From Planctomycetaceae bacterium (lineage in GTDB: Bacteria > Planctomycetota > Planctomycetia > Pirellulales > Pirellulaceae): 38,275 nt of DNA. Where the stretch lies: NCBI GenBank assembly GCA_002862205.1, contig PKCN01000374.1:1-38275 (forward strand), written 5' to 3'. The notes under the pieces were generated by a model that saw nothing but the letters and a program-made list of their open reading frames with translations, was not told the DNA's origin and made no database searches. Position numbers and translations under genes: made by a program. Below, piece by piece: positions 22,001 to 35,535 of this stretch (within the stretch, counting starts at the first letter, position 1; every line of letters begins with the position of its first letter).

Positions 22001-25000
22001 ACGACGTCGATTCTGTCGGACGTAAAAATGACATTGATCATTTCTGTAAGTCTTGCCACGACTTTAGGATTTGCTGCAAAAACGGCTCTTCGTTACACAA
22101 ACTCGACACTCCTGACTCCTCACTTTGTGAACGGCTGCAATGCGACACAATGCTTCGTACTATTAACAGCATCAATCTCACTCTTGTATTCAGGTGTCTA
22201 TCTTCCAGTTGAGGCAGGGCAACTTGCGGATGTTGCGTCGGCTTTGAGCATAGCCACCTGGTGGTTGATCGTATCGATGCTCGCTTTGTGGGAAACAAAG
22301 CAGCATGGCAAAGCATGGAGCCTTGTCGTATCAGCCTTGTTCTTTGCGGCATCTGGTTGTGTTCTGGCAACACCATTTGTGATCTTTACGCCGATCACTC
22401 AAATACAAATAGCATGTCTGCTGACGTTTGCCTGGTTGCCTTTGGCAAGCCGTGTCGTGCGTTTAGACAAGGACGTTAGCGAAGAAACGGATCAAGTCTT
22501 TTATCTCCACGAAATCCTGCGCTTGATGGTATTTGCGGGAATCATCACATCCGTGTCTTGCACGGTATGTGTCTTCCTGAATCACAGCGTCTTGGACGGT
22601 CTACTGAGTCCGGCCAGCATCATGGTCTCAGCACTGGCTGCGGCAAGCATGGCGTCAAGTCGTGTTGAATCTTTTCTCAGCGGCACCTCCGACCCGAAAT
22701 GGTCCATTTCACTTCCATTTTCGTTGTCACTGCTAGCCGGCCAAATCGCGTGGATTCTGCATGAACTGAATATCACCACTGGTTCCCTGGGTGGCCCACA
22801 GTCAGTCGAGATCATTGCTGCAGTATGGATCGCGGCCGCAGTCGCTTCGATTCTGATGCCCGGACGTCGACAGCAAGCAGTTGACTTCTACCACATGGCC
22901 GCAGTGACCTTGGTGACGATGATTGCAGCAATCTATTATCAAGGTAAATCTGATATCCTGCCATGGTTGAGCCTGCTTGCAACAGCAACCAGTGGTGCCC
23001 AAATCACACTGATGTCGGCTGGCATGAAACCCCTGAATGTTCCGGTGGTGGCGGCTCGCATGCTGGGCTGGCTTGTGGGCGCTGCTGGGATTGTGCTGAT
23101 ATGGCAATTCATGGAATTCCATACCAGTTATGTGACGCTTTGGATCGCGGCTTGGGTCCTGATATGGCGATATGTTGGCCGGGACCGGATGGCGACTGAT
23201 CGTGAATCGAAACAGATGTACGACCTTCCTTCACTGGAGTTCTCAATCCTGCTGCTTGCTATCGCGTTTGCAGATATTGCTTTCAGTTTGGGTTTCTTTG
23301 CCGATTTCCATTCTCTTGATAATCCGATGCTTTGGCTACGGTCCAGCTGTTATGCATTGACTGCAATTTCAGTGGTATTTCGACCGCGTACAAGTGGCGA
23401 CTGGTTCGTTTCGCTGATGATGCTGAGCACTGCGTTTTCACTTCTTGTGATTGCGGCCACCAAGATGTTGGGCGGAGCTCCTGCTGACCAATACACAGCT
23501 GCAATCATCAGCTATGCGTTCTTCTTTGCCGCAAGTACTACCTCGCTGGGCAATCTCGCAAAATTAGCTGGCTGGACAACTTCCAGTCCAGCTGGAGTGC
23601 ATTTCAAACGCCTTGTCTCAACGACCACGTCAATTCTCACCATATTTGCTGTGGTGAGTGTTGGCAGTCCGATCATCATGATGATCGTGCAACTACCATT
23701 GCCCGAAATTCAGCTTGCCATCGTGAGTGTCGCCATGATTGCTTGGGCTTTCGCGGAAGTCTCAGAGCAAGCCTCCCTTGCCAAACTGAGATATGTAGCG
23801 GTTTCTCTGGCATTGGTCGCCATCGCACTTTGGGCGAGCGCAAGCTCGTTGGACAATGAATATTTGCTACTGACAACCTGCATGCGTTGGTTGGTGGCAT
23901 CTGCCCTGATCATTCCCACACTTCTATTTGTACTCCCCAAAATTCTGGGTTCCGGCATCCGGACCCGCTGGATGGATGCGTTCCAGAAAGGTGCGATCAC
24001 CGCCGGGATGGCTGGCATCGGCTCAACATTCGCCATGATCACTTTGGAATTCCTGAGTCGTGACAGCAACGGCCTGGAAACCTTACCTCTGGTAGCAGTC
24101 ATAGGAGCAGCGATCACTTTGGGTGTATTGAGCCTGATGTGCGGAGCGACTGCACTGGCAACGGGTCCCAAAGGATACTTGCGTTTGACGCTTTCGCTCA
24201 CAGATCAACAACGCACGTACCTTCTGCTGGCAACACAATTGCTTGGATTCCTGACTTGGTTGCATCTTTTCCTGTGCAAGCCTGCGTGGGCCTTCATGGG
24301 TCTCAAAGAACACTGGCCCTACGTGGTCATGGGACTCGCATTTGCAACTGTCGGGATCACTGAATTTGCTCGCCGCCGAGGTGATACGGTGATGTCCACG
24401 ACAATTCGCAAAACCTCGCTCTACCTGCCCCTGATTCCTGTCCTGGGTCTATGGCTCAGTGCATCCAATCAAGGCGGCCTTTTCTTTTCGAACATGATCA
24501 AGTCGAATTACGAAATCCTGCTGGTGATGGCAGCGGTGTATTACCTGGCAGTGGGTACGCTGTGGAAAGCAACCATGCCGCGCGTGACGGGTGTGATTCT
24601 CGGCAATGCAGCATGGTGGTTTGTGCTGATTCAGTTGCCGGGATGGGGATTCATGATGCACCCACAACTGTGGCTGATTCCGCCAGCAGCCTGTGTTCTT
24701 GTCATGACTCATTTTTATCGGGAACGCCTCGACCCCAAACTGGCATCTGGCATTCGATATGGTTCAACCCTACTGATCTACATCAGCAGCTCAGCCGATA
24801 TGCTGCTTCAACAAATTGGGACGACGCTTGCTGGTCCCATTGTTTTGATTCTGCTTGCCTTGACGGGAATGTTACTGGGAGTGGTACTGAGAATCCGTCC
24901 ATTCCTTTATCTCGGCGCAACCTTTGTATTTCTGGGAGTAACCAGCATGGTTTGGCATGCCAATCGGGCCTTTGACTCGACTTGGCCATGGTGGGTATTC

Positions 25001-25105
25001 GGCATCAGCATGGGGCTAGTCCTTCTAGCCGGTTTGATGATGTTGGAAAAATTCAAACCTCAATTGCAGGCTTACGCAAAGAGTCTCTCAACTTGGGAAG
25101 CATGA
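19094..25105 (+). CDS. Giant polytopic membrane protein (2003 residues), function unknown
   Basis: The ATG at 19094 is chosen because it opens the first membrane helix (MSDFFIALGIGWIAV); a TTG at 19070 lies 8 codons upstream. After that helix come about 200 soluble residues rich in Ser/Asp/Gln/Pro (about 35-225) that look disordered. From HNIRWGELIAGTLIVVCSIG onwards, near residue 236, the protein is almost continuous hydrophobic segments to the end, with short polar loops; I estimate around fifty helices. A helical, largely hydrophilic tail is absent: it ends in MMLEKFKPQLQAYAKSLSTWEA. The start of the membrane part resembles the architecture of large DUF2157/DUF2339-type membrane proteins, but I cannot assign a family. 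No catalytic motif was seen. It is transcribed alone. Confidence 0.8.
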   Translation: MSDFFIALGIGWIAVTLVGHASWLIVEKFIRLFTSPKDQAGTNVRDRSSIAKSVIQGLHQEGRIDSGTVTKVVSAIDQSESGIPLNPLDQPALATSSVGRNKTAADQDTDAVVSSGDGFQIDDPLKSARTTEGSEPEIIMARVIDESKPPTPIESPTNPAANIPGSDNQKQERISSLLDPITPASSQTNTKEHQQALQVDPASQSSEAANTSSNAADQKPNTTISMGEIIQSFLSAHNIRWGELIAGTLIVVCSIGLVISLWGPLVQTHRAIPTLIFLAANAAIYSVGLYTLSRWRLRHTSRAVLIIATLLIPLSVLAGMAASGIDATQAIDLSDPITLGTIGLAGLVYSVFLYLGGKALTSRTHVWTIFTAVAGSVLALVLSPAAIRAFENQAGWLIAIGSSSVIFACVMLGNLNRRRFTSLGPAGARLRLLVMGLSVYSLAIATISMGYHLRGFAPSALLPLAMALIPACIALAGVASSLRERSRNSTISMIGAVCCVLLSAITLVIVAPAMSSPTWLWTWALTMSISLVAGRYLLQQPSWFAISTIPIGLVAICTAQVWLGGQTWQTSALFAKFLNGEAMAASLLMCLTSGSLCWVSSKSPAKKWLLYANMGWCGATLLIAAALSLAPESQMGVMPTWVITATLFAAALATFLFSIRDYRADYLTVVITALAFNSIYRVTPSLSLDNLPNWLYLTLSVAVILTILSELSCRLALRFNDGCVENASLVRKQLAHISLATVGIGILLAVIGTRSHFELSCATHVISAAILVWISLLLGNLNIFKIAQLPTLLLTVSLTRHFFEAELWTQAGWVNGQAIWGWSVVLGALAVFWYLLRAATNFYLSRSAANAPISGLSTEVGHNTSFRDRASLLLGQPIRPLEMPDTWFGLASSSLATAATTYLFFCLNRFTISQLPLDYNTSWVMPVLGWLSVGVFAGLLAKQKVQREITCTLIGLLGIIFTLWFSCQLTTSILSDVKMTLIISVSLATTLGFAAKTALRYTNSTLLTPHFVNGCNATQCFVLLTASISLLYSGVYLPVEAGQLADVASALSIATWWLIVSMLALWETKQHGKAWSLVVSALFFAASGCVLATPFVIFTPITQIQIACLLTFAWLPLASRVVRLDKDVSEETDQVFYLHEILRLMVFAGIITSVSCTVCVFLNHSVLDGLLSPASIMVSALAAASMASSRVESFLSGTSDPKWSISLPFSLSLLAGQIAWILHELNITTGSLGGPQSVEIIAAVWIAAAVASILMPGRRQQAVDFYHMAAVTLVTMIAAIYYQGKSDILPWLSLLATATSGAQITLMSAGMKPLNVPVVAARMLGWLVGAAGIVLIWQFMEFHTSYVTLWIAAWVLIWRYVGRDRMATDRESKQMYDLPSLEFSILLLAIAFADIAFSLGFFADFHSLDNPMLWLRSSCYALTAISVVFRPRTSGDWFVSLMMLSTAFSLLVIAATKMLGGAPADQYTAAIISYAFFFAASTTSLGNLAKLAGWTTSSPAGVHFKRLVSTTTSILTIFAVVSVGSPIIMMIVQLPLPEIQLAIVSVAMIAWAFAEVSEQASLAKLRYVAVSLALVAIALWASASSLDNEYLLLTTCMRWLVASALIIPTLLFVLPKILGSGIRTRWMDAFQKGAITAGMAGIGSTFAMITLEFLSRDSNGLETLPLVAVIGAAITLGVLSLMCGATALATGPKGYLRLTLSLTDQQRTYLLLATQLLGFLTWLHLFLCKPAWAFMGLKEHWPYVVMGLAFATVGITEFARRRGDTVMSTTIRKTSLYLPLIPVLGLWLSASNQGGLFFSNMIKSNYEILLVMAAVYYLAVGTLWKATMPRVTGVILGNAAWWFVLIQLPGWGFMMHPQLWLIPPAACVLVMTHFYRERLDPKLASGIRYGSTLLIYISSSADMLLQQIGTTLAGPIVLILLALTGMLLGVVLRIRPFLYLGATFVFLGVTSMVWHANRAFDSTWPWWVFGISMGLVLLAGLMMLEKFKPQLQAYAKSLSTWEA

Positions 25106-25187
25106 ACCACACTCTGCGTTGCCTCGCTGGCACTGAATCTTCCCCGACTTGTTCTGGATATTCCACATGGCGTTGAACAGCCAGACA

Positions 25188-26618
25188 TCAGTCGACTGGT
25201 TGTGCAGTGAACTTGATGACGTACTCACGATTCTGATCAACAACACGTGGATTCGGCACCAGAATAAAGTCGTCTGCTACGACAACTTCGAGATCATCAC
25301 CGGAGATCATGGCGACATTCTGGATTCGACGGTCAAGTAACTGAACGATGGGTCGCCAGCCTCGCTGGGCCCCATTGGTATTGACCGGCTCGAAAGACAT
25401 GGACCCCTTTTGGGGCGTGATGGTAAGCGTATAAGTATCTCCCTGCACTTCCAGTTTCTGTCCGTACGCCTTGGGGCGCGAGGGCAGGCGTGCTTCCCAG
25501 GCGGGATCACCATAAAACGCAACGGTATCACGATCCCACAACAAGCCTCTGCAATCCAATGCTGACAACCCCAACTGCTTACCTGCTGGATTCGGGTCCA
25601 CCGCTGGCAAGCGTTGTGATCCTGGTTCGAGCGCGACCCCGGTGATTCCATCAAAGTGACGATCGAGTCGATGAATCAGGGCGTGATGATTGGCGTGAAA
25701 CGCCTCAGCAAGCGTATAACGCCCCGGCTGCTCTGTAAAATAATCCAACACACCCCAACCACCATAGCCATACCAGGTCACAACCGTGTAACCCACCATT
25801 TGCCGCACACCAAGACCGTTCATCCATGCCAACGCCATGGCATCAGGCCCATCGATGTGCCCCATCAGACAATTACCAATCGCCATATAGACTCTGGGAT
25901 CCGACGAAACGATCTCAAACGGTTCCCCTTGCAGGGGGACACCAAACATCTGTCCTTGCTTCGATTGAAACGTGCCGTTTTTGTATCGGAATCCGATCTG
26001 CCAGTCACGTTCCGTTGCGTGACCAGAAGTAACAAACAGATCCGCTGATCCAGTTGTCAATGTGTCGGCCAAAGCACGAGTTGTATCTGATGGCCCCCGT
26101 TGCTCTGTTGGCATACCGTCGGTGTCTTTGCTCACCTTCTTGTTTTTTACCAACTCGTCATACCAAACACCCTGCTCACACAGCTCGAGCGCCAACTCTG
26201 TCCCTGATGCAACTTTCTTCACTGACAGGGGTTCATCTGTTTTTGCGATCGCAAGCGCATTGCTGGCGTCATAACCGGTCAATATTCCCCATAGAGTATC
26301 TGTGTAGGGATCCGTGTCGTATTGTCGGGTCAACTGATGAACTGCCGCCACAAACTCCCTGCCGGCTTCCTCCGGACGAGCGACAAAACAGGTATGCCGC
26401 GGATGCTGTTCACGCAACAAAGGCAAGACTTCTGAAACATCATTTTCCCATATCAGCACATCAGCGTTTGCATGTCGCGCCAATAAAGCGTCAACGACAG
26501 CCTGCCATCCTGCCTGTTTATTTGTTTGGCGAGATATAACCACCGAATAATCGGATGCTTCAGCCAGTGCCACAGAAACCATACATGCCATGCATGCTGC
26601 CAGAACAGTCTTTTTCAT
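25188..26618 (-). CDS. Secreted protein with caspase-like (clan CD, C25-like) cysteine peptidase core
   Basis: The ATG at 26618 gives 476 residues with a signal peptide (TVLAACMACMVSVALA, cleavage near residue 19-21); 28 further upstream residues in frame were rejected for lack of a second signal. Two blocks mark the caspase fold: a hydrophobic strand followed by SGHATE with His200 (LFVTSGHATE), and a second strand followed by GNCLMGHID with Cys250 (VYMAIGNC). The His/Cys order and 50-residue spacing agree with clan CD peptidases such as gingipains and caspases. A Trp/Gly-rich strand (MVGYTVVTWYGYGGWG) follows. The C-terminal 110 residues look like a beta domain. Substrate and activation are unknown. 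It converges with the giant membrane protein gene. Confidence 0.65.
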   Translation of the reverse strand: MKKTVLAACMACMVSVALAEASDYSVVISRQTNKQAGWQAVVDALLARHANADVLIWENDVSEVLPLLREQHPRHTCFVARPEEAGREFVAAVHQLTRQYDTDPYTDTLWGILTGYDASNALAIAKTDEPLSVKKVASGTELALELCEQGVWYDELVKNKKVSKDTDGMPTEQRGPSDTTRALADTLTTGSADLFVTSGHATERDWQIGFRYKNGTFQSKQGQMFGVPLQGEPFEIVSSDPRVYMAIGNCLMGHIDGPDAMALAWMNGLGVRQMVGYTVVTWYGYGGWGVLDYFTEQPGRYTLAEAFHANHHALIHRLDRHFDGITGVALEPGSQRLPAVDPNPAGKQLGLSALDCRGLLWDRDTVAFYGDPAWEARLPSRPKAYGQKLEVQGDTYTLTITPQKGSMSFEPVNTNGAQRGWRPIVQLLDRRIQNVAMISGDDLEVVVADDFILVPNPRVVDQNREYVIKFTAQPVD

Positions 26619-26747
26619 CACCAGTTTACGTTTGATCGAGTTAGTACTTGTGAGCCAAAACGCACGAGCATGCGAAACCGAATGCTCGTGATCATCAATC
26701 ATTCAGGTAAACAGTTTTCATGGTTGACCACAAAAAGTCACCCTTAC

Positions 26748-26763
26748 GTACCCCGAGGGGTAC
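26748..26763. promoter_or_regulatory. Perfect 16-bp palindrome between divergent genes
   Basis: GTACCCCGAGGGGTAC has 7-bp perfect arms and a 2-base centre, and is followed by an overlapping GTACCCCGTAC. It lies between the divergent caspase-like and phosphatase genes, about 17 bp before a TATACT box. It could be an operator. Confidence 0.4.
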
Positions 26764-26779
26764 CCCGTACGTGCTCTTG

Positions 26780-26785
26780 TATACT
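26780..26785 (+). promoter_or_regulatory. Possible -10 element for the MDP-1-like gene
   Basis: TATACT is a good -10 hexamer, about 55 bp before the start codon. No -35 match lies at 16-18 bp; that position is occupied by the end of the palindrome, which would suit a regulator-dependent promoter. Confidence 0.3.
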
Positions 26786-26840
26786 ACCGCGTCAGACGAA
26801 TGCCCGCCTCCCCCGCTGAACCGGGACACCTGGATACGTG

Positions 26841-27323
26841 ATGCCGCCACAACTGATCGTTTTCGATCTCGACTTCACACTTTGGGACTGCGACGGCACT
26901 TGGTGTGACTGCCTTTCCCCTCCCTTTGAGATCCGATCTGGAATGGTTTTGGACTCGAGGAAAAGACACATCACACTCTATTCGGATATTCAAAAAATAT
27001 TGGATGAGTGCAAGTTCCAAAAATGGAAAATGGCTTTAGCCTCGCGGACAGAACAACCCGCCTGGGCGCAACAACTGATTGAGTTACTGGGGATTGCTGA
27101 GCATTTCAGCTACTCAGAAATTTATCCTTCGAGCAAACTGGAACATTTTGCTGCACTCAGAGAAGCGACCAATATCGAGTACCAGCAAATGCTGTTCTTT
27201 GACGACGAAAGACGCAACATCACTGAGGTGAGTTCACTTGGTGTCTGCTGCGTTCATGTCACCCAGGGATTGAATCATCTGCTATTCAGGCAAAGTTTGG
27301 ATCGCTTTGAGCAGCACAACTGA
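26841..27323 (+). CDS. MDP-1-type magnesium-dependent HAD phosphatase
   Basis: The ATG at 26841 (a GTG precedes it directly) gives 160 residues. HAD motifs are present: motif I VFDLDFTLWDCD with nucleophile Asp9 and acid/base Asp11; motif II ALASRTEQP with Ser; motif III Lys in SSKLEHF; motif IV FFDDERRNI. The LDFTLWDCD sequence and short length without a cap domain are typical of MDP-1 (eukaryotic magnesium-dependent phosphatase 1), which hydrolyses phosphate from small molecules or glycated/phosphotyrosine substrates. Bacterial relatives are common in planctomycetes, but their substrate is not known. It is divergent from the caspase-like gene. Confidence 0.85.
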   Translation: MPPQLIVFDLDFTLWDCDGTWCDCLSPPFEIRSGMVLDSRKRHITLYSDIQKILDECKFQKWKMALASRTEQPAWAQQLIELLGIAEHFSYSEIYPSSKLEHFAALREATNIEYQQMLFFDDERRNITEVSSLGVCCVHVTQGLNHLLFRQSLDRFEQHN

Positions 27324-27544
27324 GCATCAATTGGGGAATTTCCGCTTCAAGTGTCTTCCCAGAAGTTGCAAGAAACGCTGGTCAGCAGAAAAAGTTTCAA
27401 GGCCGCGTGACATTCAGTAGGGGAAAACGCCCTTACAAAGCGGGGTAAAAGTCCGACAATCCCGACGATTTGCCGTCGAGCATGGATCCAGAAAGCCTCC
27501 CATTTCCGGGTCAGACGGAATCATTTGGAGATTATTTTGCAACT

Positions 27545-27632
27545 TGCGTGATGTCCACTCAGAGGATGCGTGATGTCCAGTCAGAAGGAGCGTCATGTCC
27601 ACTCAGAGGATGCATCATGTCCACTCAGAGGA
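27545..27632. repeat. 21-23-bp tandem repeat, 4 copies
   Basis: Units start at 27545, 27567, 27590 and 27611 and share the core ATGTCCACTCAGAGGA (second copy: ATGTCCAGTCAGAAGGA). Unit length varies (22, 23, 21, 22 bp). The array ends about 120 bp before the sigma factor start. Confidence 0.85.
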
Positions 27633-27699
27633 GTGGTGCAGCCCTGAAAAACCGTCTCACTGGTCAGATGGCAGTGGATAATGCGAATTATTTGCCGTT

Positions 27700-27719
27700 G
27701 TTTACCCAGAGGAGTAAAC
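27700..27719. promoter_or_regulatory. Inverted repeat 35 bp before the sigma factor gene
   Basis: GTTTAC and GTAAAC arms are separated by 8 bases (CCAGAGGA). Position and symmetry suit a dimeric regulator site or a leader hairpin; the intervening AGAGGAG is 40 bases from the start and too far to be the ribosome-binding site. Confidence 0.35.
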
Positions 27720-27754
27720 TACAAGCCTCATCTTTTCTTATCTGAGACCGTGTC

Positions 27755-28408
27755 ATGGTCAACATTTCAACATCAGGATCGCCGTGTGCGCACGTAGATT
27801 TCCGGGATCTACTGGATCGTGCCAGAAACGGTGACATCGAATCTCTGGGCAAGTTGCTTCAGTGGTACGCAAATTATTTAAACATTTTGGCCTCGACGTC
27901 ACTGGATCGCCAACTACGTCAAAGAATCAATCCATCCGACGTAGTTCAAGAAACGATGCTCGCTGCACATCGTGACTTCAATGCATTCCGCGGAACCAGT
28001 CAGCCAGAAATGCTTGGCTGGCTTCGCAAGATTCTGATCAACACGCTGCACCGCGCATTCTCGACTCATGTACGGGCCGACAAACGCGACATCCGGCGTG
28101 AAGTGTCCATTGAGCGTACATCACAGCGGATGGATGAATCTGCCTGCAATCTGGCTGCGATCCTGCCCGGACGCGCGAATTCGCCAAGTGAACCAATGAG
28201 GGCGAGGGAACAAGCTGTAGATTTCGCAAATCAACTCAACCAACTGCCTACCCAATACCGAGATGTGATCGTCTATCGCGTATTGCAGGGTCTGGCGTTT
28301 GAAGAAATTGCGGAACGGATGGATCGCTCATGTGGTGCCGTACGAATGCTGTGGCTGCGAGCTCTTGACCAATTCAAATTGTCATACGGGGACTCCAATG
28401 ATTGCTAG
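27755..28408 (+). CDS. ECF-type RNA polymerase sigma factor (planctomycete subfamily)
   Basis: The 217-residue protein has sigma region 2 at about 45-110 (QRINPSDVVQETMLAAHRDF, with RGTSQPEMLGWLRKILINTL) and region 4 at about 155-215 (LPTQYRDVIVYRVLQGLAFEEIAERM, with GAVRMLWLRALDQFK). A linker of about 45 residues joins them; sigma region 3 is missing, as in ECF factors. The NPSDVVQET/EFLGWLR-type sequence is that of the planctomycete-specific sigma-70 subfamilies. Such genes commonly sit beside Ser/Thr kinase genes; here the kinase start overlaps this gene by 11 bp. No anti-sigma factor with a zinc motif is seen, so control through phosphorylation by the kinase is an inference. Confidence 0.9.
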   Translation: MVNISTSGSPCAHVDFRDLLDRARNGDIESLGKLLQWYANYLNILASTSLDRQLRQRINPSDVVQETMLAAHRDFNAFRGTSQPEMLGWLRKILINTLHRAFSTHVRADKRDIRREVSIERTSQRMDESACNLAAILPGRANSPSEPMRAREQAVDFANQLNQLPTQYRDVIVYRVLQGLAFEEIAERMDRSCGAVRMLWLRALDQFKLSYGDSNDC

Positions 28409-31190
28409 GCGAAATCCTCAAAACATCTCTTCATCCTCTTGCCAGATCGCGGACCTGAATCATGATCAGCAACAACGCCTGACAGACGTCCTTGACGACT
28501 ACCTGAAAGGACTTGAAGAAGGTGAACCGGTCGATGTTCAAAAAGTCCTACGGCAAAACGCTGACATTGCCGACACACTGCGGGACTACCTCGCAACCCT
28601 TAACAGTTTGCGAGGCATTGCACCTGGATTTCAATCCCATGGTGACCTCGAGCCACTGGTGTCAGGTGATTCCGGTGACTCCGTTCATTCGCTGCAACTG
28701 GGTGAGTACACCATCATTGGTGAAGTGGGCCGTGGTGGGATGGGTATTGTCTATGAGGCCCAACACGATGCGCTGAACCGGCGCGTGGCATTAAAAATCC
28801 TTCCCATTGCTTCGATGCTCGACTCTCGGCAAATCGCCCGATTCAAAAATGAATCAAACGCAGCCGCACAACTACAGCACCCACACATCGTGCCGATTTA
28901 CAGCGTTGGTATGGAAAGGGGCATCCATTACTACGCGATGCAATTCATTGAAGGAGAAAACATTGAATCAGCCATCGCAACTGCCAACGAATCGGGGCAA
29001 CAGGACCATTATCGACAAGTTCTTTCCAGAGTTGCTGAGGTAGCAGATGCACTTCACTGTGCCCACCAATGCGGCATCATTCACCGGGACATCAAACCGT
29101 CAAACCTGATTCTGGACAAGTCGGGAAAAATCTGGGTCACTGACTTTGGACTCGCCCGCTGCCAAAATCAAAACTCACTGACCTTGAGTGGTGATGTGGT
29201 CGGCACGATGCGATACATGAGCCCTGAGCAGGCAGCGGGCCAGATGGAGCGTGTTGACCACCGAGCCGACATCTATTCTCTGGGGGCCACACTGTACGAA
29301 ATGCTGACCGGGCTTCCAGCGATCACAGGAGAAGACAGCCCAGCAGTCTTGAGTGAGATTGCCAATTGCCCAGTGCCCAAACCGCGACGATTGAAACCTG
29401 ATTTGCCGCCAGCCATCGACTTTGTTGTCCAAAAAGCCATGGCAAAGAACAAGGATGATCGCTATTGCACGGCGTTGGAATTTGCCAATGACCTCGAAGC
29501 TGTGCTTGACCAAAAGCCAACTCTGGCAAGACCTCCCTCCAGAACATGGCTGTTAAAACAATGGACCAGTCGACACCGCAGACTCGTTCTGAGCACATCG
29601 GTCATGCTGCTATTTGGAATCGCTGCGATGCTGACAGCGCTCGTGGTCATTGCGAACAAAAATGGGGAACTGCAGGCGAGCAAGCAAGCAGCTGATCGAA
29701 ATTTCCAGAAAGCACAGGAAGCAGTCGGCACGCTTGGGCTCGCGGTCTCTGCTGATCTTGCATCCATTCCAGGAACTGAGCATATCAGACAATCAGTACT
29801 TGAAAACACTCTCAAACATTACAAGGATTTTGTTCAGGAGTCCGAAGGCAAAAGAACATTACTGTCTGAACTTGCCCTGACACACAGTCGCATTGGTTCT
29901 CTGATTCTCGAATTGGAATCTCCTGAGGCGGCGATCCCGCATTTTGCTGCATCTGAAAATTCCTATCGGGCACTTTTAACTGAGAATCCAGGATCCGTAG
30001 AAGCGTTACAGGGACGTGCTCGCAATCTGAACCAGATGGGACTTGCCCAGACAGCAAGCGGTGATCACCAAGGTGCGCGACGATGCTACGACCATGCTAT
30101 AAGAATTCAGCAGAACCTGACCGAACATACGTCTGCTGTCGAGCATCAAATCGACCTTGCATTGAGTCAAAGCAACCTCGGTTTGCTGATGGTCGCCGCC
30201 GACAACGCGAGTGAAGCAGAAATAATCTTACACCAATCAGTGAACAGCCTGTCCAAACTGACCCAAACGCATCCCAATCATGTCCTCGCCAATCGGGGAC
30301 TCGCCGCAGCACTGACCAACCTCAGTTCCCTCACCCTGGACACTGCACCTGATCAAGCCATTGTGCTTCTTGAAGCAGCAATCGACTGCCAACTTCGAAT
30401 TCGCAAATCTGCCCCCAGTCAGCTCAAGTCATCCAGCGAAATTGCGAACACATACAACGCATTGGGTGCAGCAGAGCTTTCTGCGGAAAATCCATCTGAG
30501 GCTATCGATGCCTTTGCGCTCGCAATCGAAATCAATCGTAAAATGCATGCGATTGCCCCCTCGGTCAGCAACTACCGAGATGACCTGGCAACGAGCCTCA
30601 ACAACATTGCCAATGCCTACTATCAACAGCAACAATACGCGTCAGCCACCCAGGCCGCACGCGAAGCCATCAACTTGCAATTGACCAGCCTGAAACGCAA
30701 TCCGGCGAATGCTGATTCACTCAAGCGACTTGCAATCATGCATGGCAATTTGGCGGCAGCTCTGGCTGCCATGGAATTGACCGCAACTGCCATCCAAGCG
30801 TACCAGCATGCAATCGACTTTCAAACTCAAGTACTGGAAGTCGACCCCACGGATACGGCAAGTCAAATCAGCCTGATGCAACTGTACAGTGCGTTGCTGC
30901 GATACCAGATTCAACAACAACACTGGAACGAAGCCAACCGGACATTGACCGCGTACCGACTTGCCGCCGAAGACCGGCCTGAACATATAATCCCAGCGGC
31001 AACAAGCATTGCAGAAATTTCAAAGTCATTTGACGGTCATCGACATCAGGAACTATTCACCGCCAACATCGCCGCTCTCTTCGCCACTGCGAAGCAGCGT
31101 GGTATCAACATCAATCCGGCCATTCTGGAGACAGAGGTCTTTGCCAATTTCAGCGAAGACAATCAGATTCGCAGGGCGGTGCGGAAATGA
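28398..31190 (+). CDS. Membrane Ser/Thr protein kinase with TPR sensor region
   Basis: The ATG at 28398 overlaps the sigma gene (GGGGA six bases before it) and gives 930 residues. After about 100 residues with a helical segment (DVLDDYLKGLEEGEPVDV) comes a full Hanks-type kinase: Gly loop GRGGMG near 110, VALKIL Lys near 131, IIHRDIKPSNL near 227, TDFGLA near 248 and MRYMSPEQAAG. All catalytic residues are present, so it should be active. One membrane helix (VMLLFGIAAMLTALVVIA, about 398-418) separates it from about 500 residues of TPR-like helices (repeats such as ALAQTASGDHQGARRCYDHAI), presumably on the far side of the membrane and acting as sensor or scaffold. The stop overlaps the next gene's ATGA. 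Confidence 0.92.
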   Translation: MIARRNPQNISSSSCQIADLNHDQQQRLTDVLDDYLKGLEEGEPVDVQKVLRQNADIADTLRDYLATLNSLRGIAPGFQSHGDLEPLVSGDSGDSVHSLQLGEYTIIGEVGRGGMGIVYEAQHDALNRRVALKILPIASMLDSRQIARFKNESNAAAQLQHPHIVPIYSVGMERGIHYYAMQFIEGENIESAIATANESGQQDHYRQVLSRVAEVADALHCAHQCGIIHRDIKPSNLILDKSGKIWVTDFGLARCQNQNSLTLSGDVVGTMRYMSPEQAAGQMERVDHRADIYSLGATLYEMLTGLPAITGEDSPAVLSEIANCPVPKPRRLKPDLPPAIDFVVQKAMAKNKDDRYCTALEFANDLEAVLDQKPTLARPPSRTWLLKQWTSRHRRLVLSTSVMLLFGIAAMLTALVVIANKNGELQASKQAADRNFQKAQEAVGTLGLAVSADLASIPGTEHIRQSVLENTLKHYKDFVQESEGKRTLLSELALTHSRIGSLILELESPEAAIPHFAASENSYRALLTENPGSVEALQGRARNLNQMGLAQTASGDHQGARRCYDHAIRIQQNLTEHTSAVEHQIDLALSQSNLGLLMVAADNASEAEIILHQSVNSLSKLTQTHPNHVLANRGLAAALTNLSSLTLDTAPDQAIVLLEAAIDCQLRIRKSAPSQLKSSSEIANTYNALGAAELSAENPSEAIDAFALAIEINRKMHAIAPSVSNYRDDLATSLNNIANAYYQQQQYASATQAAREAINLQLTSLKRNPANADSLKRLAIMHGNLAAALAAMELTATAIQAYQHAIDFQTQVLEVDPTDTASQISLMQLYSALLRYQIQQQHWNEANRTLTAYRLAAEDRPEHIIPAATSIAEISKSFDGHRHQELFTANIAALFATAKQRGININPAILETEVFANFSEDNQIRRAVRK

Positions 31191-32650
31191 TTCAACATCG
31201 AAACAAACACCAGCAAAGCAAGCGAACCTGTCGCGTTGAATTGCTCGAACAACGAATGACTCTTAGCGGCATGGGATTGATCGGCGCAAATGGCCTTGGC
31301 TCCCACACCCCGGAACTGAACGGTCATTCACATCAGCAAGCCCGGGAATCGGCTCAACCCAGCGAACACTCCTCTGAGCTATCACCTGAACATAAACGTA
31401 CACACAATGACCAGACTTCGCACCCATCGGAAATCCACCCACCCCAACGTGGTCCTCACACAGACCCACATCCGACACATCATCAGTATCTCTCGCACAC
31501 TCGACACCCCCAACCTCATCACTCAGCTTTCGAACGCAGTGGCCAGAACGATAGCTTGACTGTTGCGGCAGCGTCCCCAGCGATCTCGCAGGAATTGACA
31601 GAACAGTCTCCAGCTCCAGTCTTTAACGCCAATGAGCCGTTATTCAATCCACCGTCAGCCACTCTGGAATCACTTGCAGTTGTGATCACGCAACGCCCCA
31701 ACACTCCTTCCAGCTTGACTCCTTCCAGCTTGACTCCTTCCAGCTCGCCTAATTCCCGAAGTGATTCTCTTGTGCTGACGGGATCAACAGACGAATCCAC
31801 GTTGTTTGACAATACGAATGATGACTTTCCAGCCAGCCCAGCAAACGCTCTCAATCCCGAAGCGTCCAGTACTAATTCCACAACGAAAAACACCCTATCC
31901 AACAGTGACCCACGCAATGTATCAGCCAGCAACTTATCTCAGGCCAGAGTGAGCGCAGCTGAACGAACGAGCCACAGCGAGCTACCAACGGCACAACAGC
32001 TGGCATCACCACCAACTCACACGGCTGAAGAAGCTGCAGACTCGCTATTTGCTTCAGACTTCGTTCAGCATGAATTACAAATACAGGTGCGAGGGCCCCA
32101 CCACGAAAGGGCCCAGTTGCCTACAAATAGCATTCATCTGCAACTCACCAGTCTGGAGGATTTACTGCAGAGCCTCGCCATATCTCGTGCAACCGGACAC
32201 CGAGCTGGCAACGCCGACGCAGCAACAGGAGATAAGGTTAGGGGTGTGGAGCAAGACGCATCCCACACCAATCAGCGGGCGTCGAGGTTGAATCCCATGA
32301 TCCTGTTGATGCCAACAGACCCTTCCCATTCTGAATCAGCTGCAACAGCCAAGTTGCATCCCACACAGCTGCAGCACAGTAGCCAATGGGGTATCCCGTT
32401 GGGGCGACACCGTGCAATCACGTCGACCCTTGTTCACGAAGCGACTTCACACGAACCCATTTTGACTGGCCCACCTGGCATGCGTGATGAGTTGGCGTCC
32501 CTCCCCGTGGATCCCAACAGCAAACCGATGAACTTCACGCCCACAGCACCACGCGGATTTGCAATTTTATGCTGTGTGATGGTCATTCCGCTCATCCGTC
32601 GAAAGTATCAACAACGACGCAGGTCGCCGTACCAATGTCTTGGAGATTGA
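31187..32650 (+). CDS. Low-complexity protein with LEPR-XLL-like N-terminus and C-terminal hydrophobic/basic tail
   Basis: The ATG overlaps the kinase stop by 4 bp (ATGA). The 487-residue product starts with basic residues and CRVELLEQRMTLSGMG (16-30), similar to the LEPR-XLL motif (LEDRMMLS and alike) found at the N-termini of many large planctomycete surface proteins. The middle is disordered: His/Pro/Gln-rich at 40-115, then Ser/Thr/Asn/Ala-rich with a 15-bp repeat encoding SSLTP near residue 175. The end is a short hydrophobic stretch (GFAILCCVMVIPLI) followed by RRKYQQRRR, shaped like a cell-surface sorting signal or tail anchor. No enzyme motif is seen. Co-translation with a kinase and sigma factor suggests it is part of that signalling route. 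Confidence 0.7.
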   Translation: MIQHRNKHQQSKRTCRVELLEQRMTLSGMGLIGANGLGSHTPELNGHSHQQARESAQPSEHSSELSPEHKRTHNDQTSHPSEIHPPQRGPHTDPHPTHHQYLSHTRHPQPHHSAFERSGQNDSLTVAAASPAISQELTEQSPAPVFNANEPLFNPPSATLESLAVVITQRPNTPSSLTPSSLTPSSSPNSRSDSLVLTGSTDESTLFDNTNDDFPASPANALNPEASSTNSTTKNTLSNSDPRNVSASNLSQARVSAAERTSHSELPTAQQLASPPTHTAEEAADSLFASDFVQHELQIQVRGPHHERAQLPTNSIHLQLTSLEDLLQSLAISRATGHRAGNADAATGDKVRGVEQDASHTNQRASRLNPMILLMPTDPSHSESAATAKLHPTQLQHSSQWGIPLGRHRAITSTLVHEATSHEPILTGPPGMRDELASLPVDPNSKPMNFTPTAPRGFAILCCVMVIPLIRRKYQQRRRSPYQCLGD

Positions 32651-32699
32651 CGTTTCAGGTGTTGATGCATGCTCGGAGAATGTTAGTTCTGCATTCAAC

Positions 32700-35174
32700 C
32701 TAGGCATGGGAATCATCTTTGCCCAAATATTTCTTGGGCTGTGACAGCGTTTCGATTTGGTTCGCGCGACAGAGATTCAAAAGGGACTCGGCATTTTTCA
32801 GTAAGTCGATCCACTCGAGTTGTCCCTGATTTGCTTCTTCCCGAATTCTATCAGCGGCAGACGCAATCTCTTCGCTTTGATGTTTTCGGGCGGTATTTGC
32901 CAAACTTGCAGCGAGCTCCTGAAGTTCCACAACATCCCGGGCGTCAACCGCATCCGCAATTTTCTCCGCCTGTGCACCGATAGCTGTCACAGACAGATCG
33001 ACTTGCGGCTCCAGATCACGCTTGCCTTGTGTCCCATCCTGCTGCAAAAAGTGAACAAGATGCTCAACCAGCGCAGGATCGAACTGCTGACCGGCACATT
33101 CCTGCAACTCCTCGATGGCCTCAAGCTGTGACTTGGCTGGACGGTGCCTCTGTTCTGTAATCATTGCATCGTAGGCGTCAGACAATTTCAGCAGTCTGGC
33201 CGTCAGCGGGATGTCATTGCCCATCGGCAAGGGAGAATCAGAGTCATTGTTCCGGTAATCAGCTCGATAGGTACGAAGTATTTCAAATAGTTCGTCCGAG
33301 CTGAATGTACATGAGATAATTTCCAAACCAATCCGCTCATACTGCCGCATCGACGTCCATTCATCGTTCGACAGTTGGTCCGGCTTCAAAAGTATGTCAT
33401 CGGCGATTCCAATCTTTCCAATGTCGTGCAACAAGGCAGCAATTTCCAACAGGTAGATATCCCTTGCACTGAGTAATCCGTCAGCCAACTTGAGACACAA
33501 ATCGGCAACTCTTCTGGAATGTTCTGCTGTCTCATAATCACGGTAAGCCAGCGCGCTGACCAATGCTTTTACTGCGCGAAAAGAAATATCATTTTCTTCG
33601 TGTTCGTTCTGGACAGGGCACAATCTCTGACCTGTCGCATAATCATCCCACTGCTCGAACGATTCTGAAAATGCCACCACCGCATCTCGTCCGCTACGCT
33701 TGGCCCCATACAGACATCGATCTGCCTGATTGATCAATTCCTCAGGACTACTGGCACCAGACTGCAGATCTGAGATCCCGATACTGACGCTGACAGACAA
33801 ATCAGGGTACTCATCAAGTCGGAGGGCTCTGACTTTGTCTCGCACCAAATTCGCCTGTTCCATGACAGACCCCATCCAATGATCTTTGATGACGATACAG
33901 AATTCTTCACCACCATACCGACAAACCAGGGCCGATTCTGTAAACACATCCACCAGGATACCGGAAACTCGCACCAGTACATCATCACCGGTTTGGTGAC
34001 CATATTGATCGTTGACATTTTTGAAGTGATCGCAGTCCAACATCAGACATGCCAACTCACCATCATTTGCGGAAACATCTTCCCAGAGCACCTCAAGTTG
34101 CTCAAAGAAAGCCCGACGATTCAGGCATCCCGTCATGGCATCCTGAGTGGCCAAAATCTGCAACTCACGATTCTGAAGACGAACCTCATCACGACTGCTT
34201 TTCAACATTGCAAGCATGTGCTCGGTTTGCGCACGGTGCTGTTCACTATCAGTCACATCCCGAAACGTAAGCAACACATCCCGCAATTCTTCATCCGGCG
34301 ATTCAACTGGAGACGAATTGATTGAGAAGAATCGATAGACTCCATCCGGCTTTTGAAAACGCATCAGTTGCTCTATCTGCGATTGCGATTCATCACGAGC
34401 GCGAATCCAGGGGAAATCGGATTTTCGCGTTGCTTCACTGCAATCCCAGGACAGTGAACTAACACTCTTGCCAATCAACTGGTCGGTATGCAGACCAGTC
34501 ATTTTTTGAAATGCCAGATTTGTGAGGATGATTTTTTCGTGCTTGTCCATCACCAGCAGGCCCTCGGACAACATGTCAATGGAATGCCGCACACGCTTGG
34601 GAATCCCCTGCGCAGCGTGCATTTTGGTAACACTGCGTCCCCACTGAGAGATACACAACAACACACTGATGGTCAGCACCAGCAACAGAGGCCAGACATT
34701 CAGGTCGTAATCGGAGACTGCATTGACAACCTCCGCAGGTCGGAAAAAGGTTCGAGCACGATAATAAAAGTCCACTCGCCCTGCGAGTCCCGACGTTCCT
34801 GTGACAACTCTCGAATCGATTTGATGGTCAACACTTCCTATTTCATCGAGCGTTGCGATGTCCGGCACGACGAGGGTGGCAGCATGACGATCTGGCGTAT
34901 TGCCAGCATCCGGTACTTCCAGGGAGCCAAAGCACTCGACCCGGATTGCCTTCAAACCCGGTTCCGTACGCACGGTCTGCTGCAGCAAATCCACCAACTG
35001 CTCTGTTTCACTGCCAGTCCTCTTTTTTGCCAACCAAGCCTGGAATCCGTGGATAACTTGCCCGTTCAAATCCGTACGTGTTGCTTTCAAGATTTCAGAT
35101 TGGGGGACTTGCCGCAAGCCGATCCATATCACCAGTGTCAGGAGCGCAAACAGCAGCATCAGAAAGGTGCTCAT
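32700..35174 (-). CDS. PAS-GGDEF-HD-GYP-HPt-like protein, probable diguanylate cyclase
   Basis: From the ATG at 35174 the product has 824 residues; the frame continues upstream to 35501 (ATGs at 35384 and 35465), so the start is uncertain. Order: helix 2-24, extracytoplasmic sensor region about 25-155, helix about 156-176, PAS domain about 195-310 (LSEGLLVMDKHEKIILTNLAF), GGDEF domain about 345-500 with DAMTGCLNRRAFF, LDCDHFKNVNDQYGH and intact RYGGEEF near 419, then an HD domain (AEHSRRVADLCLKLA, HDIGKIG near 581). The HHExxDGxGYP block is replaced by RTYRADYRNN near 634. The last 90 residues resemble an HPt domain with Ala756 where the phospho-His would be. There is no RxxD inhibition site before GGEEF. 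Net prediction: c-di-GMP synthesis, with decayed hydrolase and HPt-like parts. Confidence 0.85.
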   Translation of the reverse strand: MSTFLMLLFALLTLVIWIGLRQVPQSEILKATRTDLNGQVIHGFQAWLAKKRTGSETEQLVDLLQQTVRTEPGLKAIRVECFGSLEVPDAGNTPDRHAATLVVPDIATLDEIGSVDHQIDSRVVTGTSGLAGRVDFYYRARTFFRPAEVVNAVSDYDLNVWPLLLVLTISVLLCISQWGRSVTKMHAAQGIPKRVRHSIDMLSEGLLVMDKHEKIILTNLAFQKMTGLHTDQLIGKSVSSLSWDCSEATRKSDFPWIRARDESQSQIEQLMRFQKPDGVYRFFSINSSPVESPDEELRDVLLTFRDVTDSEQHRAQTEHMLAMLKSSRDEVRLQNRELQILATQDAMTGCLNRRAFFEQLEVLWEDVSANDGELACLMLDCDHFKNVNDQYGHQTGDDVLVRVSGILVDVFTESALVCRYGGEEFCIVIKDHWMGSVMEQANLVRDKVRALRLDEYPDLSVSVSIGISDLQSGASSPEELINQADRCLYGAKRSGRDAVVAFSESFEQWDDYATGQRLCPVQNEHEENDISFRAVKALVSALAYRDYETAEHSRRVADLCLKLADGLLSARDIYLLEIAALLHDIGKIGIADDILLKPDQLSNDEWTSMRQYERIGLEIISCTFSSDELFEILRTYRADYRNNDSDSPLPMGNDIPLTARLLKLSDAYDAMITEQRHRPAKSQLEAIEELQECAGQQFDPALVEHLVHFLQQDGTQGKRDLEPQVDLSVTAIGAQAEKIADAVDARDVVELQELAASLANTARKHQSEEIASAADRIREEANQGQLEWIDLLKNAESLLNLCRANQIETLSQPKKYLGKDDSHA

Positions 35175-35375
35175 GGAGCGCGCAGAGGCAACACGGTTCG
35201 TGAGCACAGTAGAAATCCGATTCAGTGCAGTTTCGTCAACAGAAGTGAGGCTTCTAGAACTGTGTTTAACGTTGCTGTGTTGTGCAACGTCTGGATTGAA
35301 TTCCGACCACCGGATCAAACAGCAGAGCAAGTCTTTAACGATTGTGCGGGTTATGTCGCCGTCGCCCGCGAGTCG

Positions 35376-35419
35376 GCCCTCCATCGCCCCTCCGTCGGCC
35401 CTCCATCGCCCCTCCGTCG
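35376..35419. repeat. 22-bp direct repeat, 2 copies
   Basis: Two perfect 22-bp copies starting GCCCTCCATCGCCCC (35376-35397 and 35398-35419), with partial similarity on either side. The array lies in the uncertain upstream extension of the GGDEF gene and creates an ATG with a GGAGGGG in front on the minus strand. Confidence 0.85.
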
Positions 35420-35535
35420 CCTCGCAGGTCGGCCCGAATGCGTGGGTTCGTCTACCCGGGTGCACCATTGATCCCTTGGGGCGGAAAACAAATCCATCCA
35501 CGTCAATTCAAATTCGAACACAGCTCATCGCCGCT

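Follow-up and report, generated by a model that had tools for sequence, protein, structure and literature searches.

What a third gene is doing immediately behind the genes for an ECF sigma factor and a Ser/Thr protein kinase, and whether the three products act as one signalling unit, is the question raised by a locus in the window analysed here, a stretch of 38,275 nucleotides that makes up one of the 451 contigs (C44) in a planctomycete assembly of 7.77 Mb. The initial annotation described three ORFs, all on the forward strand, namely a sigma factor gene (27755-28408), a kinase gene (28398-31190) and the third gene (31187-32650). These coordinates were exact, as were the overlaps of 11 bp (28398-28408) between the first two genes and 4 bp (ATGA, 31187-31190) between the second and third. 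It also took ECF-kinase pairs to be common in planctomycetes; such pairs were indeed already known, and kinase-linked groups have been tabulated (PMC8999054, Table 2).

The sigma factor (217 aa) scores 242.9 bits with the model TIGR02984 (Sig-70_plancto1, Planctomycetaceae-specific subfamily 1), for which the curated cut-off is 183.75 bits, and is thus a member of this subfamily. At the site of the DAED core-binding motif in region 2.2 it carries NPSD (residues 59-62, 27929-27940); the first D is replaced by N and the E by S, which puts a Ser at the acceptor place, and the last Asp is retained. Sigma factors encoded with both a kinase and a third gene, referred to here as cassette sigma factors, mostly read [SN]PSD at this site. 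Only one of the 91 cassette rows still has the first acidic residue (lost in the other 90), as against 34 of 43 rows for kinase-linked sigma factors without a third gene. Both the Ser at the third place (Ser61) and the last acidic residue are present in all 91 cassette rows. However, Ser at the third place was also found in 33 of the 43 kinase-linked rows without a third gene and in 14 of 15 rows without a kinase, and it was ruled out as a kinase signature because kinase-less sigma factors carry it too. As Ser is common outside the clade it proves nothing alone, and it is the loss of the first acid that marks the cassette clade. One sigma factor with neither an adjacent kinase nor a third gene (L050) has SDSD, with an acid where cassette members mostly have Pro. 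This is a single case; a second kinase-less sigma factor (L054) has SPSD.

The kinase (930 aa, 28398-31190) consists of an N-terminal region, a kinase domain (about residues 104-376, 28707-29525; Pkinase, E 9.1e-41), one transmembrane (TM) segment (about residues 401-423, 29598-29666; best 19-residue hydropathy 2.56, from residue 401) and a TPR region (about residues 430-925, 29685-31172; Pfam TPR matches). K133, E152, HRDxKxxN and DFG are invariant in all 42 aligned cassette kinases. Assignment to the PknB-type PASTA kinases (NF033483) was rejected, as the score of 292.8 bits lies below the cut-off of 450, the match covers only residues 103-376, and TPRs are found in place of PASTA.

The ECF groups used for comparison reportedly originate from Casas-Pastor 2021. 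In the kinase-linked group ECF43, PknT phosphorylates EcfP of Vibrio on a Thr of the motif that replaces DAED (PMC8999054), and PknS of Xanthomonas, with a kinase domain, a TM segment and periplasmic TPRs, directly phosphorylates the ECF sigma factor EcfK, in which a Thr of the linker also plays a part and T51A does not abolish function (PMC13147305). As in these pairs, the ECF gene in the window lies beside a gene for a membrane Hanks-type kinase, and the acidic motif in region 2.2 is altered in part, with a Ser at the acceptor place, where ECF43 has uncharged residues with a phospho-acceptor (STTA or QTTA). The order of kinase domain, TM segment and TPRs is that of PknS, and by this analogy the TPR region is predicted to be extracytoplasmic. 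Unlike ECF43, the sigma factor in the window belongs to the TIGR02984 subfamily, and the last Asp is retained in [SN]PSD. According to a review, acidic residues persist at this place in the kinase-linked groups outside ECF43, which may work differently (PMC8999054, section 3.4).

To what extent the third gene accompanies such pairs was assessed in three sets of loci. Set 1 comprised 60 sigma factor loci among the matches listed, namely 20 of the 23 that ranked highest below the window's own and then 40 picked by hand, which included the three skipped earlier, were mostly from genomes in few contigs, and included two from the window's own genome. A kinase gene follows the sigma factor gene in 48 of the 60 and not in the other 12, and a third ORF with the motif described below was found behind 23 of the 48 kinase genes and not behind 25. 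These 23 ORFs were called with a regular expression written after inspection and were therefore used for training. From 21 of the training proteins and that of the window, an HMM was built for the N-terminal motif; the outliers L057 and L067 were left out, and the L057 protein is missed by the HMM. Set 2, with one genome per species, comprised the best 80 of 152 sigma factor relatives, with titles that name planctomycetes or only 'bacterium'. A kinase gene was found at 77 of the 80 loci, and the contigs of the other three end 50, 256 and 470 bases past the sigma factor ORF. The end of the kinase gene lies inside the sequence in 75 of the 77, leaving 75 evaluable loci. Counting HMM matches in the interval between 60 bp upstream and 450 bp downstream of the kinase stop codon, a third ORF was found at 64 of these at ≥8 bits and at 62 at ≥10 bits. 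The remaining 11 loci were inspected by eye, which gave weaker calls than the HMM; ten have an ORF with a variant motif and one, L121, has none. Hence, a third ORF with a motif of the same kind is present at 74 of the 75 evaluable loci among the best 80 sigma factor relatives (64 by HMM and 10 by eye). Seven set 2 loci repeat training loci, and with these excluded the figures are 57 of 68 by HMM and 10 by eye. In the rest of the 1.098 Mb there were 27 HMM matches at ≥10 bits, from which about 0.006 per locus is expected by chance in a stretch of the size scanned.

The third gene was not found with any kinase pair outside the sigma factor clade, either in set 1 (0/25) or in set 3 (0/17), which comprised 20 loci chosen from 27 matches, three of them without a kinase gene and all but one (L219, from the window's family) from other families. 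The proposal that the three genes form a cassette thus survives comparison with relatives, in which the third gene could have been absent or elsewhere, whereas the view of the third gene as an unusual addition does not, as it is the rule in this sigma factor clade. With the same trio recurring in many related bacteria, the third protein probably belongs to the signalling route as a regular component. The single judged kinase of the cassette clade without a third gene (L121, 8581-11664, strain SV_7m_r) has a Gly/Pro-rich low-complexity C-terminal extension.

A maximum-likelihood tree built quickly from 154 sigma factors, with deeper relations unsure owing to long branches outside the cassette group, places all 91 cassette rows in a single 99-row group (SH-aLRT 93, short of the starred level of 95). 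The other eight rows are five that could not be judged, two without a kinase (L050 and L054) and one with a kinase only (L121). With unjudged rows left out, the fewest changes between presence and absence of the third gene is four, for example one gain and three losses. A near sigma factor (E≤1e-40) was found in 20 of 294 genomes from across the phylum, the window's own included. Pirellulales is the best-supported limit of the group rather than a proven one, and some set 2 genomes were named Planctomycetaceae or Planctomycetales by their depositors. At least 11 genomes have two or three cassettes each, and every cassette has its own third gene.

Within the locus, ORF calling alone places the kinase start at an upstream TTG (28299). 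We use the ATG at 28398 because the same spacing of -11 recurs in the two closest orthologues, L035 and L036. At the second junction, an ATG at -4 from the kinase stop codon was found for 35 of 90 third genes of relatives, a GTG for two and a TTG for one. Every possible ATG overlaps the kinase stop codon in 29 of the 90, every ATG lies downstream of it in 33, either arrangement is possible in 22, and six have no ATG; the third gene overlaps the kinase gene in 50 of the 90 under the start rule used, which favours overlaps. No terminator-like sites were found on the forward strand in 27300-32800 by a scan that provides weak evidence, a promoter scan, with five sites where 3.9 are expected, was uninformative, and there were no Rfam matches at the gathering score in 25000-34000.

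Overlapping genes are costly to separate, and the three could in principle be conserved neighbours without a functional link, held together by the overlaps only. L121, which has lost the third gene and retained the sigma-kinase pair, would agree with this. However, the trio is intact in the 33 cassettes in which every ATG lies past the kinase stop codon, and a search of 60 genomes, of limited sensitivity (see below), gave no member of the third family elsewhere. We therefore regard an association through gene overlap alone as very improbable.

The third protein (487 aa, 31187-32650) is mostly of low complexity. It has no Pfam match at E≤1, and the only NCBIfam match is at chance level (MPN396, E 0.6). 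Near the N-terminus lies KRTCRVELLEQRMTLSG (31220-31270), a variant of RRLxxExLExRxLLA, the consensus of a motif found in planctomycete cell-surface proteins and a proposed export signal (PMC8567305, citing Studholme 2004). In 83 aligned third proteins the conserved residues of this motif are R in 71, E in 82, L in 69, E in 81, R in 83 and L in 71. The initial annotation had named it a LEPR-XLL-like, surface-protein-type motif. An export-type motif is indeed present in the family, but the LEPR-XLL label does not hold, since PF07595 ('Planctomycete extracellular') is closer, with matches at E≤0.1 in nine of 24 third proteins (best E 1.9e-5; none in the other 15) versus two of 24 for LEPR-XLL (NF012209; best E 0.08). 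The window protein matches neither model at E≤1, and its motif is a degenerate copy; LEPR-XLL was consequently ruled out as a family name. Like PF07595 proteins, third proteins carry the RRLxxExLExRxLLA-type motif at the N-terminus; unlike them, they add shared C-terminal blocks, mostly a hydrophobic C-terminal segment, and linkage to a sigma-kinase pair.

The conserved C-terminal part of the window protein (31991-32647) contains blocks predicted to be helical from the model of a relative, a TM segment and a basic tail. The hydrophobic segment (residues 454-470, 32546-32596; mean hydropathy 2.04) is followed by RRKYQQRRR. Besides the N-terminal motif, conservation among the 83 aligned proteins is seen in a pair of GGxI-type blocks, in a block that includes [VI]G-x-[HYF] and at the C-terminus, where a hydrophobic part is followed by R or K; single isolated Pro or Asp columns are probably alignment artefacts. 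Third proteins thus have in common the N-terminal motif, the GGxI-type blocks, the block before the TM segment and an R-rich tail. The window protein has all three features used to define the family (position after the kinase, N-terminal motif, and C-terminal blocks with a TM segment), and matches the C-terminal model with 66.3 bits (E 1.2e-17), itself being a training row. Of 84 complete third proteins, 62 have a C-terminal hydrophobic segment, 49 with a basic tail in addition, and 22 have no clear segment. Of 775 other open frames of ≥350 codons from the same loci (third ORFs excluded), 103 have such a segment and 42 a basic tail as well, a rough comparison as non-coding frames are included. 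An AlphaFold model of a relative (L044; 29 rows) has a pTM of 0.23 and a mean pLDDT of 52.2 and contains only three helices (245-271, 325-341 and 358-378), the last of which is the hydrophobic segment. In this model the protein looks disordered outside the C-terminal blocks and hydrophobic segment. No relative of the C-terminal part was found among solved structures (best E 0.97). By eye, the third genes of L057 and L067 seemed to encode a cohesin-like domain, but this has no Pfam support.

Such a protein may not be a signalling component at all, but a protein of the surface or envelope, produced by an autoregulated operon when the sigma factor is active, with the N-terminal motif exporting it and the hydrophobic and basic C-terminal end acting as a sorting or anchoring signal. 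The motif itself, common to planctomycete cell-surface proteins, the C-terminal segment with its basic tail, and the predominant disorder predicted in the single relative modelled all agree with an output protein, as does very fast divergence (median distance 0.97 for the third protein versus 0.46 for the kinase domain). What does not agree is that there is one third gene per sigma-kinase pair, even in paralogous cassettes within one genome, that the ATG at -4 in 35 of 90 cassettes suggests a fixed stoichiometry with the kinase, and that a conserved block, helical in the model, adjoins the TM segment. In addition, no stand-alone copy was found with the C-terminal model in 60 genomes. This model gave matches in 12 of them (the window's included), one each and all at known cassettes, but it misses about half of the 24 known cassettes, and 11 of the 12 that match are training rows, so the result is limited evidence for absence elsewhere. 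Direct comparison of the window protein with the same 60 genomes (the window's and 59 relatives) gave full-length matches in G005 and G020, with 31 and 25 % identity, and, in one more relative, a weak match interrupted by stops. On this evidence we consider an output protein unlikely, though it is the main rival to the reading preferred below.

The third protein could also remain inside the cell, tail-anchored, and tether or inhibit the sigma factor in the manner of an anti-sigma factor until the kinase phosphorylates its Ser/Thr-rich part and frees it. The family contains 11.0 % Ser and 6.6 % Thr, only one of the 84 complete proteins has a hydrophobic N-terminus by the cut used, no anti-sigma gene is recognizable among the three ORFs with Pfam or NCBIfam, and one of 24 members has a weak NCBIfam 'antisigma' match (E 0.024). 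However, a basic tail after the TM segment fits a tail inside and the bulk of the protein outside, the N-terminal motif is of the surface-protein type, and no anti-sigma family is among the Pfam matches of the 24 members at E≤0.1. A cytoplasmic inhibitor is therefore improbable.

The reading we prefer, at a probability of roughly one half, is a three-component unit from envelope to transcription in which the third protein is an exported, membrane-anchored and dedicated partner of the sensor kinase. The kinase would lie in the membrane with the catalytic domain inside and the TPR region outside. The third protein would be exported via the planctomycete-type N-terminal signal and anchored by the C-terminal helix, with the short basic tail inside and the long disordered part outside, and might be a co-receptor for the kinase, hold its ligand or inhibit it. 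Changes in the cell envelope would alter the contact between the two and activate the kinase, which would phosphorylate the sigma factor, probably at Ser61 of NPSD or in the Ser-Pro-Ser linker, and the phosphorylated sigma factor would then bind RNA polymerase. The proposed direction from surface to kinase to sigma factor, also suggested in the initial annotation, fits published ECF-kinase pairs.

The third protein co-varies most with the TPR region, but weakly (partial rank correlation 0.18, versus 0.04 for the kinase domain and 0.10 for the sigma factor). The TPR region ranked highest in 139 of 200 half-samples, and another run gave 0.20, 0.02 and 0.08 for TPR region, kinase domain and sigma factor, respectively. 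Differences in rate could lie behind this pattern. Counted against a signalling unit were L121, with sigma factor and kinase but no third gene, the 22 of 84 proteins without a clear hydrophobic C-terminus, the pTM of 0.23 for the L044 model, and the lack of a PF07595 or LEPR-XLL match for the window protein. Counted against a switch at Ser61 were the frequency of Ser in sigma factors without a kinase or without a third gene, retention of the last acid in 91 of 91 cassette rows, the possibly different mode of action of groups other than ECF43, and the functional T51A version of EcfK.

No account of a third component of ECF-kinase pairs was found in the literature searched, coverage of which was partial, so that an earlier description is possible. 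An exported-type third protein is not mentioned for ECF43 in the available parts of PMC8999054 and PMC13147305. The groups ECF59, ECF61, ECF62 and ECF217, with representatives that include Rhodopirellula, are listed as regulated by phosphorylation (PMC8999054, Table 2), and the available parts of that source mention no third component for them, in contrast to the cassette in the window. In a sister ECF-kinase clade a gene for a membrane protein follows the kinase gene (L068, L077, L080 and L084). The ECF-kinase-histidine kinase units L077 and L080 resemble the cassette in having a further gene after the pair, but it encodes a CHASE4-HAMP-HATPase sensor and not an exported disordered protein. 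At the loci of five kinase-less TIGR02984-like sigma factors (L056, on contig C159 of the window's own genome, L060, L069, L071 and L085), the next gene is glutamyl-tRNA synthetase-like by its N-terminus, as judged by eye.

ECF-kinase pairs are a recognized but little-tested coupling between envelope and transcription, with many in planctomycetes, and a conserved third component with an export-type motif is a concrete candidate for what these kinases read. It would tie the planctomycete surface-protein motif to signal transduction, and there is a defined sigma factor clade for testing, with the natural losses L050, L054 and L121 as comparisons. A wider view is tentative and on balance doubtful: that the cassettes form a widespread three-component class of bacterial signalling with a kinase-gated ECF sigma factor, duplicated as whole cassettes in Pirellulales, in which the exported disordered third protein and not the kinase would set the envelope signal that is read.

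Four direct copies of a 22-bp unit (TGCGTCATGTCCACTCAGAGGA) were found at 27545-27632, about 120-210 bp upstream of the sigma factor start. The 16-base core of this unit (≤1 mismatch) occurs nowhere else in the assembly, and the repeat is absent upstream of the two closest orthologues. Further upstream, a 504-aa protein without a Pfam match at E≤0.01 is encoded at 25188-26702 on the reverse strand, and the upstream neighbour (26838-27323) encodes a HAD-type acid phosphatase (PF12689, E 2.1e-45). The downstream neighbour, on the reverse strand at 32700-35501, encodes a PAS-GGDEF-HD protein.
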